Positions 26,636 through 36,381 of a DNA stretch of 36,381 nucleotides are shown here, piece after piece. Both the position numbers and the translations under genes were made by a program. Below the pieces are notes generated by a model. That model did not search any database and was not told the DNA's origin. It saw nothing but the letters and a program-made list of their open reading frames with translations. The stretch is from positions 1 to 36,381 of the forward strand of contig JABXHR010000133.1 in NCBI GenBank assembly GCA_013373515.1, in the 5' to 3' direction. The stretch is from Gammaproteobacteria bacterium (GTDB lineage Bacteria; Pseudomonadota; Gammaproteobacteria; JABXHR01). Numbering within the stretch: the stretch's first letter is position 1; each line of letters opens with the position of its first letter.

Positions 26636-27363
26636 TGGGTCATCAAGTCTACCGCGGGTGGGTACGCCATCGGCGCTACGCACCGCGAGAACATGCGTTT
26701 AAATATCGCTTCTTTATGCCGTCTGTCGATTTGGACGATGTGCATAGTGCAGAGTGCTGGCCGTTATTCTCCACCAAACATCCAGCGATGATGCGCCTCA
26801 AGCCGAAGCATTATCTCGACGGTGATTTGTCGCCTGATGCCGCTTGGCAAAAGGTGGTAGATCTCGGAGGCCAAAACCACGGCGGCAAAGTGGTGTGGAT
26901 GGGGCAGCCCAGCTGCTTTGGACTGTATTTTAGCCCGGTCAATTTTTACTACTGTCACGATGCAGACGGGGCACTTCGCTATGTGATTGCAGAGGTCAGT
27001 AATACGCCGTGGAATGAGCGTCATCATTACTTGATTGATGCCGAGCGCCGCGAAGATACCCCTAAGGCCTTTCACGTGTCGCCGTTTATGCAAATGAATC
27101 AGCATTATCACTGGGTATTTTCGGCGCTCGAGCCCAAGTTGTTGATGCATATCGAAAATCATACTGAGAGCGGCAAATTATTCGATGCCACCATGGTGAT
27201 GCACGCTGAGCCGTGGGGTGCAAAATATCTTTTGAAAAACCTGTTGCGAATCCCTGTGTTGACCTTGCACACCGTGATAGGTATTTACTGGCAAGCCCTA
27301 AAAATTTGGCTCAAGGGCATTCCCTATCAACCTAAACCGACGGAGTCTGGCCATGCAAATTGA
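26635..27363 (+). CDS. DUF1365 domain protein
   Basis: A 242-residue protein beginning MGHQVYRGWVRHRRYAPREH at an ATG that shares its A with the preceding TGA stop; a TTG one codon earlier is possible. Typical DUF1365 blocks are YRFFMPSVDLDD, FSPVNFYYCHDADG, VIAEVSNTPWNERHHYLID, KAFHVSPFMQMNQHYHW and LTLHTVIGIYWQALKIWLKGIPYQPKP. The family is cytosolic or membrane-peripheral, of unknown chemistry, and consistently linked to Cfa-like methyltransferases. The stop overlaps the next gene by 11 nt. Within the operon it likely participates in modifying phospholipid acyl chains. Confidence 0.9.
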   Translation: MGHQVYRGWVRHRRYAPREHAFKYRFFMPSVDLDDVHSAECWPLFSTKHPAMMRLKPKHYLDGDLSPDAAWQKVVDLGGQNHGGKVVWMGQPSCFGLYFSPVNFYYCHDADGALRYVIAEVSNTPWNERHHYLIDAERREDTPKAFHVSPFMQMNQHYHWVFSALEPKLLMHIENHTESGKLFDATMVMHAEPWGAKYLLKNLLRIPVLTLHTVIGIYWQALKIWLKGIPYQPKPTESGHAN

Positions 27364-28603
27364 AAACAGTGCGAACTCTATAGACGTTAAGCATCAAAGA
27401 CGCCCTTCTTTTTGGTCTCGGCGCGTTAAAACTGAAGTGCTAAAGCTGATGGCCGACATCACTGAGGGCTATTTGGTTTGGCGCGACGGTGACGAGCTCT
27501 ACACCTTTGGCAACCCCGAGCATCATTTGCGGGCCGAAGTGGAGATTTTAGATCCGCAAAGCTATCACTCAATGGCTTTTGGCGGTTCGATTGGTGCGGG
27601 CGAAGCGTATTTTTTGAAGCAATGGGATACACCTGATTTAGGGGCGACCTTGGGCCTGATGGCCGCCAATATTCATTTGTGGGACAAAAAGGATGGTGCT
27701 GTGACAGCGCTGGCGAACTGGGGGCACTGGGCATGGCACCGCTTGCGCCCAAACAGCAAAACGGGCTCCAAGCGCAATATCCTCGCGCACTATGACATCG
27801 GCAACGCGTTCTATCAGTTGTTCCTCGATGACACCATGCTCTATTCCTCGGCGGTGTTTGAGGGCGAGATGACGCTGTACGAGGCGCAGCTCAATAAAAT
27901 GAAAGCCATTTGCGAGCAGCTGGAGCTCAAAGCGGGCGAGCATTTGGTCGAAATTGGCACCGGTTGGGGGGCGCTTGCCATCTATGCGGCGCAAAATTAT
28001 GGCGTCAAAGTGACCACCACGACCATCTCAGACGCGCAGCACACGTACACCGCTGCGCTGATTAAACAGCATGGCCTCGAAAATCAAATTACGCTACTCA
28101 AGGATGACTATCGTGATCTCAACGGCAAGTTCGACAAGCTAGTGTCGATTGAAATGATCGAAGCGGTGGGCGAGCGCTATTTATCGACCTTCTTTGCCAC
28201 CTGCAGCAATCTCTTGAGGCCCACAGGCAAGATGCTGATTCAGGCAATCACCATTCCAGATCAGCGCTATGACAGCTATCGCAAGAGCACGGATTTTATC
28301 CAACGCTACATTTTCCCCGGTGGATTCTTACCGTCACCGGCGCGAATGGCCAATGACATCGCCCGTAAAACCGACATGATGATTACGGGCTGGCGCGATA
28401 TTGGTCTCGACTACGCTATCACGCTCGATCGTTGGTCTGAGGCGCTGGAATCGCGCAAATCGGAGCTGCCCGCGCATGGTCTCGATGAGCGTTTCTATCG
28501 GATGTGGCAATTTTATTTCCGCTACTGCGAAGCGGGTTTTAATCAACGATTGATCTCAACGGTGCACATGATATGCGACAAGCCGCTTTGCAAAGTCCTT
28601 TAG
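27353..28603 (+). CDS. Cfa-like SAM-dependent phospholipid acyl methyltransferase, non-canonical active site
   Basis: A 416-residue member of the cyclopropane-fatty-acid synthase family. It has an N-terminal lipid-binding domain (about 1-130), then HYDIGNAFYQLFLDD, the SAM motif LVEIGTGWGALAIYAA (198-212) and VSIEMIEAVGERY. Compared by motif with E. coli Cfa, the active-site cysteine of YSCAYW is serine here (S166 in LYSSAVF), and the histidine of LLHTI is glutamine (Q297 in LIQAI). The glutamate (E270 of IEAVG) and tyrosine (Y354 of LDYAITL) remain. Two of the bicarbonate-binding residues needed for ring formation are therefore changed. A methyl-branch-forming enzyme, like Rhodobacter UfaM, is more likely than a true cyclopropane synthase. 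GGAG ribosome site 7 nt upstream. Confidence 0.88.
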   Translation: MQIENSANSIDVKHQRRPSFWSRRVKTEVLKLMADITEGYLVWRDGDELYTFGNPEHHLRAEVEILDPQSYHSMAFGGSIGAGEAYFLKQWDTPDLGATLGLMAANIHLWDKKDGAVTALANWGHWAWHRLRPNSKTGSKRNILAHYDIGNAFYQLFLDDTMLYSSAVFEGEMTLYEAQLNKMKAICEQLELKAGEHLVEIGTGWGALAIYAAQNYGVKVTTTTISDAQHTYTAALIKQHGLENQITLLKDDYRDLNGKFDKLVSIEMIEAVGERYLSTFFATCSNLLRPTGKMLIQAITIPDQRYDSYRKSTDFIQRYIFPGGFLPSPARMANDIARKTDMMITGWRDIGLDYAITLDRWSEALESRKSELPAHGLDERFYRMWQFYFRYCEAGFNQRLISTVHMICDKPLCKVL

Positions 28604-29100
28604 CGCAAAACGCTTACAAATTCATCGCCTATCAAACGCTGTGGTTTAGCTGTGCTTTGGCCTTCACTCAGGCCCTTTGGATAGGGGTGGCGGTCATGGC
28701 GGGCCACTATCTACTACACCTTTCGATCTTACGGGAGTGGCTGTGGATGCCTGTGCTGGCGGGCGTGGGTATCGCCATGGAGTACGGCTATGTATCGCTT
28801 GGGCTTGTGGCCTTCAAGGCGTCCTCCAGCGTGCCCCCTTCGGAGTGGTTGCTGTGGGGCTATTTCGCACTCTGTCTGCCCATGATCAATCGAGTGTTGT
28901 CTCCACTGCCGCGCTGGGCGATTTGGCCATTTTGCGGCATTAGCGGCGTGGTGGTGTATTTCAGCGCATACCGCCTTGGCGGCTTGGTGTCGCTACCGCA
29001 AACCATCGCAGAGTGGTCGCTCGTATTATTGGGTTGGGCCATTGTGGTCGGCTCTCAACTCACGCTCGTAAATTACCTCATGAGGAGGGCTGATTCATGA
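28573..29100 (+). CDS. DUF2878 family membrane protein
   Basis: A 175-residue polytopic membrane protein. Its first helix contains IAYQTLWFSCALAFTQALWIGVAVMAG; further hydrophobic stretches are WMPVLAGVGIAMEYGYVSLG, WLLWGYFALCLPMI, AIWPFCGISGVVVYFSAYRLGG and WSLVLLGWAIVVGSQLTLVNYL. This fits DUF2878, a family regularly found between Cfa-like and DUF3833 genes. The start at 28573 overlaps the methyltransferase gene by 31 nt and has only a weak ribosome site. No better start precedes the first helix. A membrane role in delivering or arranging lipid substrates is conceivable but not shown. Confidence 0.8.
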   Translation: MRQAALQSPLAQNAYKFIAYQTLWFSCALAFTQALWIGVAVMAGHYLLHLSILREWLWMPVLAGVGIAMEYGYVSLGLVAFKASSSVPPSEWLLWGYFALCLPMINRVLSPLPRWAIWPFCGISGVVVYFSAYRLGGLVSLPQTIAEWSLVLLGWAIVVGSQLTLVNYLMRRADS

Positions 29101-29627
29101 CCCTTAGATCCGCATTTGTCGCCAGTATCATCCTTCTTGTCGCGGCGTGTTCCACGCCCTCGCTCGATCAAGACTACAGCCCCTCTCCTGAACTAAAAAT
29201 CGAAGCCTACTTCCTTGGCAATACCGAAGCCAGCGGCGTCTTTTTCGACTTCAAAGGCCGCCAGTCGCGCCATTTCGTGGTGCAAATGCAAGGCGCATGG
29301 AACGAAGAGACACAGACGCTAGTGCTCGATGAGCAGTTTCTGTTCGACGACGGCGAACGCAGCCAACGCATCTGGACCATCGTCAAACAGCCGGACGGAC
29401 AGTATATCGGCACGGCACCAGACGTCATTGGCAACGCAACAGGTCGTAGCATGGGCAATACCTTTGCTTGGCAATATGTGCTCGAGCTGCCCTATCAAGG
29501 GGATACGCTAGAGGTGAGCTTGGACGACAGAATGTATCTGGTGAGCGAGGATGTCATGATCAATCGCGCCATCATGTCCAAGTGGGGCGTCAATGTGGGC
29601 GAGATTTTGATTAGTTTTAATAAATGA
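29097..29627 (+). CDS. DUF3833 family lipoprotein
   Basis: A 176-residue lipoprotein whose ATG overlaps the previous stop by 4 nt and follows a strong GGAGGG site. The signal peptide SAFVASIILLVAAC gives a lipobox LVAAC with lipidation at C18. The body is beta-rich (lipocalin-like pattern): LKIEAYFLGNTEASGVFFDFKGR, ETQTLVLDEQFLFDDGERSQRIW, GNAFAWQYVLELP-like and LDDRMYLVSEDVMINRAIMSKWG. These segments are typical of DUF3833, the last gene of this operon type. It probably sits at the periplasmic face of a membrane and may bind or carry a modified lipid. It converges on the WYL regulator gene with only 2 nt between the stops. Confidence 0.85.
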   Translation: MTLRSAFVASIILLVAACSTPSLDQDYSPSPELKIEAYFLGNTEASGVFFDFKGRQSRHFVVQMQGAWNEETQTLVLDEQFLFDDGERSQRIWTIVKQPDGQYIGTAPDVIGNATGRSMGNTFAWQYVLELPYQGDTLEVSLDDRMYLVSEDVMINRAIMSKWGVNVGEILISFNK

Positions 29628-31802: not shown

Positions 31803-32633
31803 TTAGATGGTTTTGATTGTTGTGTTCCAGTGTTTGCAGTCTGCGCTGAGTTCGGTTGTAAGTGCTGCGTCGGTAAAGAAGGTATCAATATCTCTGAGCG
31901 ATGCGATTTTTACCGGTGCCTTGCGCTCAAATTTGCTGTGGTCAGCCACCAAATAGGTCTTGCGAGATTGGTTTAAGATGGCTTGGCTCACTGCAATCTC
32001 TTGCATATCGAAATCTAACATATCGCCATCCAGATCCAATGCCGAACAGCCAATCACCGCCAAATCGAATTTGAATTTTCTGATGGTTTCGATCGCAGGC
32101 TGGCCGATTAATCCGCCATCGGTTTTGCGCAAATGGCCGCCAGTGAGAATCACTTCGGCGCTGGGGTGGTGCTGCAAGATGGCGGCGACATTTAGGTTGT
32201 TGGTCACCACCAACAAATTTTGATGATCGCAAAGCGCGCGGGCCACGGCCTCGGTGCTGGTGCCAATATTCAGAAATAGCGATACATCGTTGGGGATGTG
32301 CTCGGCGCACAACGAGGCGATGGCCTGTTTGCCCGCAAGATTGATGCCTTGGCGATCTTCATAGCGAATGTTGGCGGTGCTGGAGGGCAAAATTGCACCG
32401 CCGTGCACGCGATCCAATTCGCCGGAATCACATAGCTCGTTGAGGTCGCGGCGGATGGTTTGCAGCGTCACATCAAAGTGCTGCGCCAGTCCTTCGACCG
32501 TCACTTTGCCGTGCTGGCGAGCCATTTTAAGAATGTCTGGGCGTCGGATGCTGTTGGCCAAGGTGGGGGCTTCTTTGTAATCAATCGCCCCAGAGTATGC
32601 TCTGGTGGTGGCGTTGTAAACAAAAGCGAACAT
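31803..32633 (-). CDS. glpR: DeoR-family glycerol-3-phosphate regulon repressor (GlpR-like)
   Basis: A DeoR-type repressor, 276 residues from the ATG at 32633. The DNA-binding domain reads VTVEGLAQHFDVTLQTIRRDLNELCDSGELDRVHGGA. The sensor domain has NIGTSTEAVARALCDHQNLLVVTNNLNVAAIL, VILTGGHLRKTDGGLIG and DMQEIAVSQAILNQSRKTYLVADHSKF, matching GlpR. Divergence from glpD supports the name. The first ~24 residues (MFAFVYNATTRAYSG...) are not expected in GlpR. A TTG at 32561 would start closer to the usual N-terminus (LANSIRRPDIL), so the start is uncertain. The ATG itself lies within a candidate operator half-site. The likely inducer is glycerol 3-phosphate. Confidence 0.88.
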   Translation of the reverse strand: MFAFVYNATTRAYSGAIDYKEAPTLANSIRRPDILKMARQHGKVTVEGLAQHFDVTLQTIRRDLNELCDSGELDRVHGGAILPSSTANIRYEDRQGINLAGKQAIASLCAEHIPNDVSLFLNIGTSTEAVARALCDHQNLLVVTNNLNVAAILQHHPSAEVILTGGHLRKTDGGLIGQPAIETIRKFKFDLAVIGCSALDLDGDMLDFDMQEIAVSQAILNQSRKTYLVADHSKFERKAPVKIASLRDIDTFFTDAALTTELSADCKHWNTTIKTI

Positions 32634-32748
32634 TGAAAGAGCTTGTTAGGCTGGTCTGGTCGTTTGATGGGTTCTTTTTGTGGTTTATTTGTGTAAATTC
32701 GATTGATATATGATCAAAAAAACAATAAAAAGAAAAATAACGAACATT
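32627..32748. promoter_or_regulatory. glpR-glpD divergent region with repeated GlpR-like half-sites
   Basis: The 8-mer CGAACATT occurs twice in the same orientation, at 32627-32634 (over the annotated glpR start) and 32741-32748 (just before glpD). On the minus strand both extend as AATGTTCG followed by C/T, T, T/A, T, T. The second copy agrees over about 12 bases with the left half of the E. coli GlpR consensus (WATKYTCGWWAW), as I recall it. A short palindrome TTGAT/ATCAA (32703-32717) lies between them. The region is AT-rich, with no gene. Two operators spaced 114 bp apart would allow looping between the divergent promoters. Confidence 0.5.
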
Positions 32749-32759
32749 CAATCGGCACC

Positions 32760-34331
32760 ATGGTACAAGAAGCGCAAAGCACAGATCTATTTATTGTTGG
32801 CGGCGGTATCAACGGCTGCGGTATCGCACGTGATGCGGCTGGCCGAGGTCTGTCGGTCACCTTGGCAGAAATGAATGACCTAGGATCGGCCACCTCTTCA
32901 GCGTCAACCAAGCTATTTCATGGCGGCTTGCGCTATCTAGAGTATTTTGAATTTCGCTTGGTGCGCGAAGCGCTGGAGGAGCGCGAGGTGCTGCTGAAGG
33001 CCATGCCGCATATCAGCTGGCCAATGCGCTTTGTGTTGCCCTATCACCCCGATATGCGCTTTGAGTCAGAGACACCGACCTCAAAGCTTCTGAGCCTAAT
33101 CATGCCCTGGGCCAAAGGCCGTCGTCCTCAGTGGTTGATTCGCTTGGGCTTGTTTATGTACGACCATCTCGGTGGGCGTAAGATTCTGCCCGGCACACTT
33201 GCCCTAGATCTCCACAATACCCCTGAAGGTAAACCGCTGCAGGCACAGTTTGCCAAGGCTTATGAATATTCTGATTGCTGGGTTGAGGATTCGAGACTGG
33301 TGGTGCTCAATGCCAAAGACGCCAAAGCGCGAGGTGCTACCATTCTGCCGCGCCACCAAGTGATTTCCGCCAAGCGGCAAAATGGACTTTGGCATATCGA
33401 AACGAAAAATACCGAAAATGGCAGTGTGCAAATGCACACGGCCAAAATGCTGGTTAACGCCGGCGGTCCGTGGGTTGCAGATGTCATTACAGAGACTGCG
33501 CGAAGTCAGCCGCAGGGCAAAATTCGTTTGGTGCGCGGTAGTCATATTGTGGTGAAACGTCTTTATGACCACGACAAGTGCTACTTCTTCCAAGGCACCG
33601 ATGGCCGCATCATTTTTGCGATTCCCTACGAGCAGGACTTCACACTCATCGGCACCACTGATGCGGATCATCCAGATCCCTCGGTCGCGCCGGTTTGCAC
33701 CGACGAAGAACGCGACTACTTGCTGCATTTTGCCAATCAATATTTCGAGAAAAACATCACGGCAGACGATGTGGTGTGGAGCTACTCGGGTGTCCGTCCC
33801 TTGTTCGACGATGGTGCCTCCAGCGCGTCGGCCGCCACCCGAGATTACACGCTAAAGGTGGATAACACCGACGGTGTGCCCTTGCTCAATATTTTTGGCG
33901 GCAAGATCACCACGTATCGGCGATTGGCAGAGAGTGCGTTAAACAAGATTCAGGAGCATTTACCCAAGACGCAGCAGCCGTGGACGGCTCAAGCCGCATT
34001 GCCGGGCGGGGATTTACCGGTGGATGGTGTCGACGATTTGGTTCAGAAAGTTCGCAATCACTATGAATTTGTTGGCTATGCATTCGCGACAAGGCTGGTT
34101 AGAGCCTATGGCACCGAAGTGTTCTCGGTGCTTGGTGATGCCAAAAATATCGCTGATCTCGGTGAGCATTTTGGGTCAGATCTGTATGCGCGCGAGGTGC
34201 AGTGGCTGGTGGACTCAGAATTTGCTTATTGCGCAGAGGATGTCATTTGGCGTAGAACAAAATTCGGACTCAGGATTGACCAGAATCAAATTAAGCTATT
34301 GGAGTCTTGGATAGCGAATTACAGAAAATAA
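32760..34331 (+). CDS. glpD: Aerobic glycerol-3-phosphate dehydrogenase GlpD
   Basis: A 523-residue FAD enzyme oxidising glycerol 3-phosphate to dihydroxyacetone phosphate and passing electrons to quinone at the inner membrane. I start it at the ATG at 32760; the reading from 32703 adds an Asn/Lys-rich tail translated from the operator region. The FAD motif is LFIVGGGINGCGIARDAAGRG. It is followed by SATSSASTKLFHGGLRYLEYFEFRLVREAL, the typical GlpD segment, then LVNAGGPWV, FAIPYEQDFTLIGTTD, SYSGVRPLFDDG, NIFGGKITTYRRLAE and the C-terminal helical domain. No clear Shine-Dalgarno precedes the start. It lies upstream of the glycerol ABC ATPases, the order seen in rhizobial glpD-glpSTPQV loci. 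Confidence 0.94.
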   Translation: MVQEAQSTDLFIVGGGINGCGIARDAAGRGLSVTLAEMNDLGSATSSASTKLFHGGLRYLEYFEFRLVREALEEREVLLKAMPHISWPMRFVLPYHPDMRFESETPTSKLLSLIMPWAKGRRPQWLIRLGLFMYDHLGGRKILPGTLALDLHNTPEGKPLQAQFAKAYEYSDCWVEDSRLVVLNAKDAKARGATILPRHQVISAKRQNGLWHIETKNTENGSVQMHTAKMLVNAGGPWVADVITETARSQPQGKIRLVRGSHIVVKRLYDHDKCYFFQGTDGRIIFAIPYEQDFTLIGTTDADHPDPSVAPVCTDEERDYLLHFANQYFEKNITADDVVWSYSGVRPLFDDGASSASAATRDYTLKVDNTDGVPLLNIFGGKITTYRRLAESALNKIQEHLPKTQQPWTAQAALPGGDLPVDGVDDLVQKVRNHYEFVGYAFATRLVRAYGTEVFSVLGDAKNIADLGEHFGSDLYAREVQWLVDSEFAYCAEDVIWRRTKFGLRIDQNQIKLLESWIANYRK

Positions 34332-34359
34332 AACTAAAAGCCAAAAAACAGGAGGTTTT

Positions 34360-35448
34360 GTGAGCTTAGAGTTGGTGGGTGTCTCCAAGCAATTTGAGGG
34401 ACAACAACATATTTACCCGACCAATTTGACCTTGGAAAAAGGCACAATGAATGTGCTGCTAGGTCGAACACTGTCGGGAAAAACGTCTTTGATGCGCTTG
34501 ATGGCCGGGTTGGATGCGCCCAGCGCTGGCTCTCTCTATTGGGACGGCGTAGATGTCACCGGGCAGCGGGTACAAGATCGCAATGTGGCGATGGTGTATC
34601 AGCAGTTTATTAACTATCCCTCTATGTCAGTCTTTGACAATATCGCCTCTCCTCTGCGTTTGCGTGGAATGTCCGCCACAGAAATCGAGCGCAAAGTTCA
34701 TGACGTTGCTGAACTTATGCAGCTTTCGCCAATGTTGAAGCGTAAGCCTTTGGAACTCTCTGGTGGTCAGCAGCAGCGCTGTGCTTTGGCGCGTGCTTTG
34801 GTCAAGGGTGCAGGCTTGGTCCTGCTTGATGAGCCTTTAGCTAACCTCGATTACAAGTTGCGAGAAGAGTTAAGGGTTGAGATTCCGAAGATTTTTGAAG
34901 CCTCGGGGGCCATTTTTGTCTACGCAACGACAGAGCCTGAGGAAGCGCTTTTGCTCGGCGGCAACACGGCGACGCTTCACGAGGGGAAGATCACGCAATT
35001 TGGCTCGACACCCAGTGTGTTTAGAGCGCCCATCAACATCCAGACGGCAGAAGTTTTCTCTGATCCGCCGATGAATTTTACTCGCGTGAATAAGCAGGGA
35101 GCCCAGTTGAAATTCACATGTGGCGCAGTGCTTGAGTGCACTGGCGATATGGCCGCTTTGGCCGACGGTGAATACGTTGCAGGGGTTCGGGCTGATCATA
35201 TTGAAATTACAGAAAAAGGAGAGGCTTCGCTTAGGTTTGACGCCACTTTGGCGGTAACTGAGCTCACCGGGTCTGAAACTTTTTTGCATCTGAACGTCGA
35301 TGACCAAGCGTGGGTAGGATTGGTCTCTGGCGTGCATTATCCGAGGCCTGGACAACCTTTGGCGGTGTACATCGAGCCGCGCCATCTCTACTTGTTTGCA
35401 GCGAATGGCCAGTTGGCTTTGCCCGCCGCTTATGCAAGTGTAGCGTAG
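34360..35448 (+). CDS. glpS: Glycerol ABC transporter ATP-binding protein GlpS-like (GTG start)
   Basis: A 362-residue ABC ATPase starting at GTG (34360) just after a perfect AGGAGG. Motifs: Walker A GRTLSGKT (35-42), Q-loop VYQQF, a complete signature LSGGQQQR (133-140), and Walker B LVLLDEP with glutamate E158. The H-loop position, normally VTHDQ, is ATTEP here (T191), so the switch histidine is missing. A C-terminal regulatory OB-type domain (about 240-360) follows, with FSDPPMNFTRV and VAGVRADHIEI. It resembles the GlpS subunit of the rhizobial GlpSTPQV glycerol importer. The second ATPase follows 8 nt later, with complementary changes. The name rests on its position beside glpD and the paired ATPase arrangement. 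Confidence 0.82.
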   Translation: MSLELVGVSKQFEGQQHIYPTNLTLEKGTMNVLLGRTLSGKTSLMRLMAGLDAPSAGSLYWDGVDVTGQRVQDRNVAMVYQQFINYPSMSVFDNIASPLRLRGMSATEIERKVHDVAELMQLSPMLKRKPLELSGGQQQRCALARALVKGAGLVLLDEPLANLDYKLREELRVEIPKIFEASGAIFVYATTEPEEALLLGGNTATLHEGKITQFGSTPSVFRAPINIQTAEVFSDPPMNFTRVNKQGAQLKFTCGAVLECTGDMAALADGEYVAGVRADHIEITEKGEASLRFDATLAVTELTGSETFLHLNVDDQAWVGLVSGVHYPRPGQPLAVYIEPRHLYLFAANGQLALPAAYASVA

Positions 35449-35456
35449 GGGGCGGC

Positions 35457-36381
35457 ATGGCGAAAATCACACTAGAACAGCTTGCGCACTCCTATTTCCC
35501 CAACCCTCAATCTGATGCAGATTTTGCACTCAAATCGATGAGCCATGTTTGGGATGATGGTGCCGCTTATGCGTTGTTGGGCGCTTCGGGGTGCGGCAAA
35601 ACGACGCTGCTCAATATCATCTCGGGGCTTTTGACACCCAGTCAGGGCAGAGTTCTCTTTGATGATGTCGACGTCACCCAAGCGACGACGTCGGATCGCA
35701 ACATTGCCCAAGTTTTTCAGTTTCCCGTGGTCTACGACACCATGACTGTGCGAGACAATCTAGCATTTCCCCTGCGTAACCGTGGCAATGACGAGCGCTA
35801 CATTGCAGAGCGTGTACAGCAAATTTCCAGAATGATCGGGATGGAGGATTCGCTGAGCCGCAAGGCCAGTGGTTTGACTGCCGACGCAAAACAAAAAATC
35901 TCTCTTGGCAGGGGCATGGTGCGGGAGGACGTCAACGCGTTATTGTTCGACGAGCCGTTAACCGTGATCGACCCACACATGAAGTGGGAACTCAGAACAC
36001 AGCTTAAAAAGCTCCACCATGAGTTCGGCCACACAATGATCTACGTGACACATGACCAAACCGAGGCACTGACTTTTGCCGATAAGGTGGTGGTCATGCA
36101 TGACGGGCAAGTCGTGCAAATCGGCACACCAGAAGCGCTATTTAACCGCCCCGAGCATACCTTTGTAGGTTACTTCATTGGGTCGCCTGGTATGAATGTG
36201 CTGCCGGTGAAGATCGATAGAAACCGAGCGCTGCTCGGTGATTTGGAAATATTTCTCGGGGGGCATTATCCAACGCTTAGCGGCAAAGTCGAGATTGGGA
36301 TTCGCCCTGAATTTCTGAGTATTTCGGATGATGGCGGGATTCCAATTGAGGTGACTCGTGTCGAGGATGTGGGCCGCCACA
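35457..36381 (+). CDS. glpT: Glycerol ABC transporter ATP-binding protein GlpT-like, partial
   Basis: Open from the ATG at 35457 (GGGGGC site just upstream) to the right edge of the window, 308 codons with no stop, so the C-terminus is missing. Walker A is LLGASGCGKTT (42-50), the Q-loop VFQFPVVYDTMTVRDN, Walker B ALLFDEP (E166), and the H-loop histidine is present in IYVTHDQTEAL (H199). The ABC signature is unrecognisable: the LSGGQ position reads LTADA (140-144), in SGLTADAKQKISLGRG. The C-terminal regulatory domain begins IGSPGMNVLPVKI. It pairs with the upstream GlpS-like ATPase, and the permease and binding-protein genes are expected beyond the window. This GlpT is the ABC subunit, not the unrelated glycerol-3-phosphate antiporter of the same name in E. 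coli. Confidence 0.82.
   Translation, partial: MAKITLEQLAHSYFPNPQSDADFALKSMSHVWDDGAAYALLGASGCGKTTLLNIISGLLTPSQGRVLFDDVDVTQATTSDRNIAQVFQFPVVYDTMTVRDNLAFPLRNRGNDERYIAERVQQISRMIGMEDSLSRKASGLTADAKQKISLGRGMVREDVNALLFDEPLTVIDPHMKWELRTQLKKLHHEFGHTMIYVTHDQTEALTFADKVVVMHDGQVVQIGTPEALFNRPEHTFVGYFIGSPGMNVLPVKIDRNRALLGDLEIFLGGHYPTLSGKVEIGIRPEFLSISDDGGIPIEVTRVEDVGRH

Follow-up and report, generated by a model that had tools for sequence, protein, structure and literature searches.

How many ATP molecules would an importer of the MalK family spend per substrate if its two ATPases carried complementary defects? The question is raised by glpS and glpT, two adjacent genes at the end of the stretch of DNA analyzed here (the window), which is 36,381 nt long and makes up one entire contig (C244) of a draft genome. 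A sequence-only reading had noted that GlpS keeps an intact LSGGQ signature but has T191 in place of the H-loop histidine, and that GlpT keeps H199 but has LTADA for its signature. Both descriptions were confirmed by translation and alignment (Table 1). The motifs do lie within the interval 34360–36381 to which they had been assigned, but this comprises two genes, of which glpT is incomplete.

Table 1. Positions of genes and nucleotide-site motifs in the window.
Feature	Coordinates	Strand	Description
glpR-like	31803..32633	-	DeoR-family regulator, divergent; Pfam DeoRC and HTH_DeoR
glpD	32703..34331	+	glycerol-3-phosphate dehydrogenase; NCBIfam NF008899, 758 bits vs cut-off 360; start codon uncertain
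glpS	34360..35448	+	MalK-type ABC ATPase, putative glycerol importer; GTG start, 362 aa; ORF call
GlpS A-loop position	34393..34395	+	Phe12 here; Val in 98/110 pairs
GlpS Walker A	34462..34485	+	GRTLSGKT, residues 35–42; Lys kept, positions 3–5 non-canonical
GlpS signature	34756..34770	+	LSGGQ 133–137, canonical; 110/110
GlpS Walker B	34816..34836	+	LVLLDEP 153–159; Asp-Glu kept, 110/110
GlpS D-loop	34837..34851	+	LANLD 160–164, canonical
GlpS H-loop position	34930..34932	+	Thr191 replaces His; within YATTEP 188–193
glpT	35457..36380	+	partner MalK-type ABC ATPase; ATG start, first 308 aa; contig ends inside gene
GlpT A-loop	35493..35495	+	Tyr13, canonical; 110/110
GlpT Walker A	35580..35603	+	GASGCGKT 42–49, canonical
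GlpT signature	35874..35888	+	LTADA 140–144, degenerate; never SGG in 110 pairs
GlpT Walker B	35937..35957	+	ALLFDEP 161–167, canonical
GlpT D-loop	35958..35972	+	LTVID 168–172, divergent; LTVID in 110/111 alignment rows
GlpT H-loop	36051..36053	+	His199 in YVTHDQ, canonical; His in 110/110

The gene order at the contig end is glpR-D-S-T, with glpS and glpT adjacent, downstream of glpD and beside glpR; glpD probably belongs to the same operon as glpS. The glpR-like product had PRK10906 (DeoR/GlpR family) as its top NCBIfam match, at a score under the model cut-off. A separate contig of the same genome (C57) carries glpP(partial)-Q-U-V-K, encoding two permeases (glpP partial), a DUF2160 protein (GlpU), a solute-binding protein with 90% identity to Gemmobacter GlpV, and GlpK. 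The GlpSTPQUV glycerol ABC importer operon of Rhizobium leguminosarum VF39, described as needed for glycerol use (Ding et al. 2012, via PMC7912956), has the same parts, two distinct ATPases among them, in the order glpR-D-S-T-P-Q-U-V-K. The GlpS/GlpT locus is accommodated as part of a putative glycerol importer, with glycerol as the predicted substrate. Elsewhere in the window, a cyclopropane-fatty-acid-synthase-like gene (27353–28603) precedes, at 28573–29627, an ORF for a small membrane protein and another, lipoprotein-like, with the motif VAACS.

Both proteins have the CUT1/MalK-UgpC architecture, with ABC_tran and then a TOBE/OB domain within ~360 aa and Pfam matches above cut-off (ABC_tran and TOBE_2 in GlpS; ABC_tran and OB_MalK in GlpT, whose OB domain is partial owing to the contig end). 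UgpC was the best profile for each, at 244.6 and 255.1 bits against a cut-off of 432; both fell well below the cut-offs of the NCBIfam models for UgpC/MalK proper, and by these scores are related to UgpC without being UgpC. GlpS is 44–69% identical to GlpT-adjoining GlpS-like proteins from other genomes. Its predicted fold matches MalK and SugC (TM 0.89 to MalK 1q12). Thr191, placed at the H-loop His column by alignment with MalK-type proteins, is flanked in the predicted GlpS monomer by strand 185–190 and helix 193–199. H199 is flanked by strand 193–198 and helix 201–207 in the GlpT prediction, which is of modest confidence (pLDDT 78.8). The models thus place T191 and H199 at an equivalent strand-to-helix turn.

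Conservation of these states was surveyed in 110 distinct adjacent GlpS-GlpT pairs. A GlpS-seeded search of genomes from the same class supplied 11 of them and genome contigs another 13; most, 83, were drawn from a phylum-wide sample seeded with GlpT, and plasmid records added three. The 13 contig pairs were retrieved with the peptide patterns SGGQQQR and NLDYKLRE and are biased towards an intact GlpS signature, whereas the 83 are free of that bias; the GlpT-seeded search found GlpT in 85 of 398 sampled Pseudomonadota genomes. In every one of the 110 pairs, GlpS carries LSGGQ but another residue at the H-loop His position (Thr in 101, Ser in 8, Ala in 1), and GlpT carries the His but no SGG. 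SGGQ was absent from the entire length of all 110 GlpT proteins. The Walker A Lys and Walker B Asp-Glu were invariant in both subunits. Two phyla are represented, Pseudomonadota and Actinomycetota, with Rhizobium, Bradyrhizobium, Gemmobacter, Cupriavidus, Pseudomonas, a lake actinobacterium (L024), Nonomuraea (L177) and Ponticoccus (L178) among the sources; the R. leguminosarum copy (L179) has identical motif defects.

The recurrence of these states in 110/110 pairs and the match in predicted secondary structure show that the substitutions do not stem from errors of sequencing or alignment. One outcome that the sequence-only reading had named as adverse to it, intact relatives with this strain alone altered, was contradicted throughout. 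Neither the H-loop nor the signature reverts in any sampled pair, so their co-variation within the family gives no scorable signal. Judged from the sampled sequences, both changes were fixed before these lineages diverged, and the asymmetric pattern looks like an ancient design, not damage in one strain. The divergent Ponticoccus pair was considered as a possible intermediate and rejected, as it carries the same defects.

To locate further deviations, we took 62 other MalK-like ATPases and scanned every column in which they reach 85% conservation or more. These relatives retain both the His and SGGQ, although most were fetched by the SGGQQQR or NLDYKLRE pattern and for those the His count alone is unbiased. 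Among nucleotide-site columns, GlpS has lost Walker A positions 3–5 (S-G-C to T-L/Q-A/S; almost every relative reads GxTxxGKT), as well as the H-loop His and the Asp and Gln after it. The A-loop aromatic is absent from most GlpS relatives but present in the window protein. GlpT has lost the signature Ser-Gly-Gly, three residues of the next helix and the D-loop. The Ser is gone from 82% of GlpT proteins and the two glycines from 99–100%, and in the motif that takes their place 108/110 have the conserved Asp143 and 103/110 Ala142.

A standard ABC dimer site is built from Walker A/B and the A-, Q- and H-loops of one subunit with the signature of its partner (PMC7756269). As the Walker/H-loop of one subunit is thereby paired with the signature of the other, the GlpS and GlpT deviations all share a single pocket. 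No sequence departs from the canonical form in the opposite pocket, which comprises Tyr13, Walker A, Q, DE and His199 of GlpT with LSGGQ and xNLD of GlpS, and the scan of columns at least 85% conserved found no nucleotide-site losses there. This complementary loss mapping to one composite site, the hallmark of an asymmetric ABC heterodimer, was seen in 110/110 pairs. What is observed directly is the state of each motif, how well it is conserved, and that the deviations cluster on one pocket. The earlier statement of one canonical site and another without His and signature therefore holds in every pair, and is reinforced by the extra deviations in the same pocket. It is correct as far as it goes, but the Lys and Glu of the second site are invariant. 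The near-invariance of Thr/Ser191 and of Ala142-Asp143 favours specialisation over simple decay. The permease-facing segments after the Q-loop Gln (QxFINYP in GlpS, QFPVVYDT in GlpT) are divergent and almost invariant within each protein, which fits the expectation that each subunit would dock its own permease.

We consider it probable that a CUT1-type glycerol importer is driven here by an obligate GlpS-GlpT heterodimer of which a single site hydrolyses ATP. GlpS and GlpT would be the two non-identical motor subunits of a MalFGK2-like CUT1 importer, assembled head to tail as an obligate heterodimer, each docked to one specific permease. Site I, formed by the GlpT A-loop, Walker A/B, Q- and H-loops with the GlpS LSGGQ and D-loop, would be canonical and hydrolyse ATP. 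At site II, formed by GlpS Walker A/B (Thr/Ser for His) with GlpT LxAD and LTVID, hydrolysis would not be completed. Most likely, site II would keep bound nucleotide as a static clamp, such that one ATP would be hydrolysed per cycle. The heterodimer alone would hold a canonical site, because either homodimer has none. We infer heterodimer assembly, the lack of hydrolysis at site II and a cost of one ATP per glycerol, and ATP hydrolysis at one site only is a prediction. Among exporters with one degenerate site, it is the consensus site that drives hydrolysis (review PMC7756269). Nucleotide binding at site II is still possible since the Walker A Lys and Walker B Glu are invariant, and retention of this Lys and the catalytic Glu by GlpS (110/110) makes residual hydrolysis there possible too.

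In MalFGK2, a close homologue, one mutant MalK of two severely impairs the transporter, while HisP reportedly functions with a single intact subunit. Given how badly MalFGK2 tolerates mutation of one MalK subunit, a single-site CUT1 importer would need an altered coupling mechanism. A more ambitious proposal, which we advance tentatively and regard as somewhat doubtful, is that GlpST represents an ancient CUT1 lineage, found in about one-fifth of sampled Pseudomonadota genomes, whose site II has become a nucleotide-free or static lock built on the new conserved GlpT motif L-x-A-D. It would spend one ATP per glycerol, unlike the two-site MalFGK2.

The best-surviving alternative also has one hydrolytic site, with site II as a nucleotide-free, permanently closed hinge in which GlpT Asp143 would replace the γ-phosphate environment and pair with GlpS Lys41/Thr191. 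The conservation of Asp143 and Ala142, which marks a specific motif and not random decay, suits such a hinge, as does the lack of an adenine-stacking aromatic at the A-loop of most GlpS proteins. The invariant GKT of Walker A and DE of Walker B suggest, however, that ATP/Mg binding by GlpS is under selection, and the window GlpS does have Phe12 at the A-loop position; we think the hinge unlikely. Somewhat less likely again is hydrolysis at both sites, with Thr/Ser191 positioning water or the γ-phosphate as His does and LxAD serving as a working signature variant. A catalytic Glu in every GlpS and a Thr or Ser at the His position in 109/110, which implies some role, are in keeping with this, but the widespread loss of the signature Ser and near-total loss of its glycines from GlpT argue against it. 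It is improbable that GlpS and GlpT are not mutual partners and that each instead works with another MalK-type ATPase or as a homodimer: such ATPases are sometimes shared among importers, as is MsmX, but the genes are adjacent in 110 pairs and their defects are exactly complementary. Strain-specific damage or sequencing error, conceivable for a draft contig ending inside glpT, has a negligible probability and is refuted by the homologue survey, where all 110 pairs, drawn from Pseudomonadota and Actinomycetota, show the motif states seen here.

GlpS and GlpT each formed one clade (SH-aLRT 100). A quick tree did not join the two, but a tree joining them was 28 log units better and was not rejected (AU p 0.825); the sequences are compatible with the origin of both from a single duplication. 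Against alphaproteobacterial (Rhodobacteraceae-type, Gemmobacter) proteins, identity is ~77–78% for the window GlpT and 90% for GlpV. GlpT from sampled genomes of the window's own class showed 57–61% identity, and the class groups with Pseudomonas- and Cupriavidus-like relatives. The G+C content of the glp operon (31803–36381 and C57) is close to that of the remaining window. From the identity values the operon looks horizontally acquired. On a Ponticoccus alexandrii plasmid (L178:3630-9081), a GlpS/GlpT-like asymmetric pair lies inside a different importer operon, with a solute-binding protein, two permeases, an alcohol dehydrogenase, a sigma-54 regulator and pyruvate carboxylase. This operon contains no glp genes and no annotated DUF2160 gene. 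The asymmetric motor is hence not confined to glycerol operons.

A long-standing question is whether the transport cycle of a type I importer requires two hydrolysis events, and it has mostly been approached through symmetric MalK and HisP mutants. GlpST is predicted to be a MalK relative that is single-site by nature and stably so in evolution, which would make ATP stoichiometry and coupling comparable within one fold family. Cheaper uptake of a three-carbon substrate is a possible selective reason. The GlpS/GlpT motifs also provide a clean annotation signature for glycerol-type ATPase pairs, which databases now call 'ABC transporter ATP-binding protein'.

MalK and related ATPases form homodimers in which both sites are canonical. 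MalK, UgpC and SugC, as CUT1 type I importer ATPases, share their fold, TOBE/OB regulatory domain and UgpC profile with GlpS/GlpT; no other case of complementary asymmetry was found in the MalK/CUT1 family. In the open-access literature searched, no publication on GlpS/GlpT asymmetry was found. Open-access papers on R. leguminosarum GlpSTPQUV likewise yielded no mention of ATP-site asymmetry, the 2012 original being outside that scope. The sequence-only reading had called such sites unusual for sugar/polyol importers, which is borne out for the CUT1/MalK family but too broad, given the CUT2-type fused ATPases RbsA and NupO, each with one degenerate site (PMC11466899). These are importers with complementary defects like those of GlpST, one half supplying Walker A/H and the other LSGG (PMC11466899). 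Their two nucleotide-binding domains are fused in one chain, however, whereas GlpS and GlpT are separate proteins, and the degenerate CUT2 half also loses the Walker A Lys and Walker B residues, of which GlpS retains Lys and Glu. A similar CUT2/nucleoside-type fused ATPase is encoded in the same genome (L206, C283): its first half has LSVGE with Walker A and His intact, and its second LSGGN, Walker A GNGQS, Walker B INQP and Gln for His.

Degenerate-site exporters include TM287/288, TAP1/2, the ABCC family and ABCG5/G8 (PMC7756269). They resemble GlpST in having one consensus and one degenerate site, with the altered signature and H-loop on the same site. They usually lose the Walker B Glu, whereas GlpST keeps it and loses the His and signature; exporter-style loss of the catalytic Glu was seen in none of the 110 GlpS proteins (Glu158). 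LivG/LivF is an importer heterodimer like GlpST, and a LivF/UrtE-like ATPase of the same genome (L207:2171-2917, C34) has Gln (VEQN) at the H-loop His, which its LivG-like neighbour keeps. Unlike in GlpST, both LivG/LivF-like signatures are intact (LSGGQ) and the defects are not complementary. By its motifs, the GlpS-GlpT pair would belong with the asymmetric ABC ATPase heterodimers, already known as a class, and would be unusual within CUT1/MalK.
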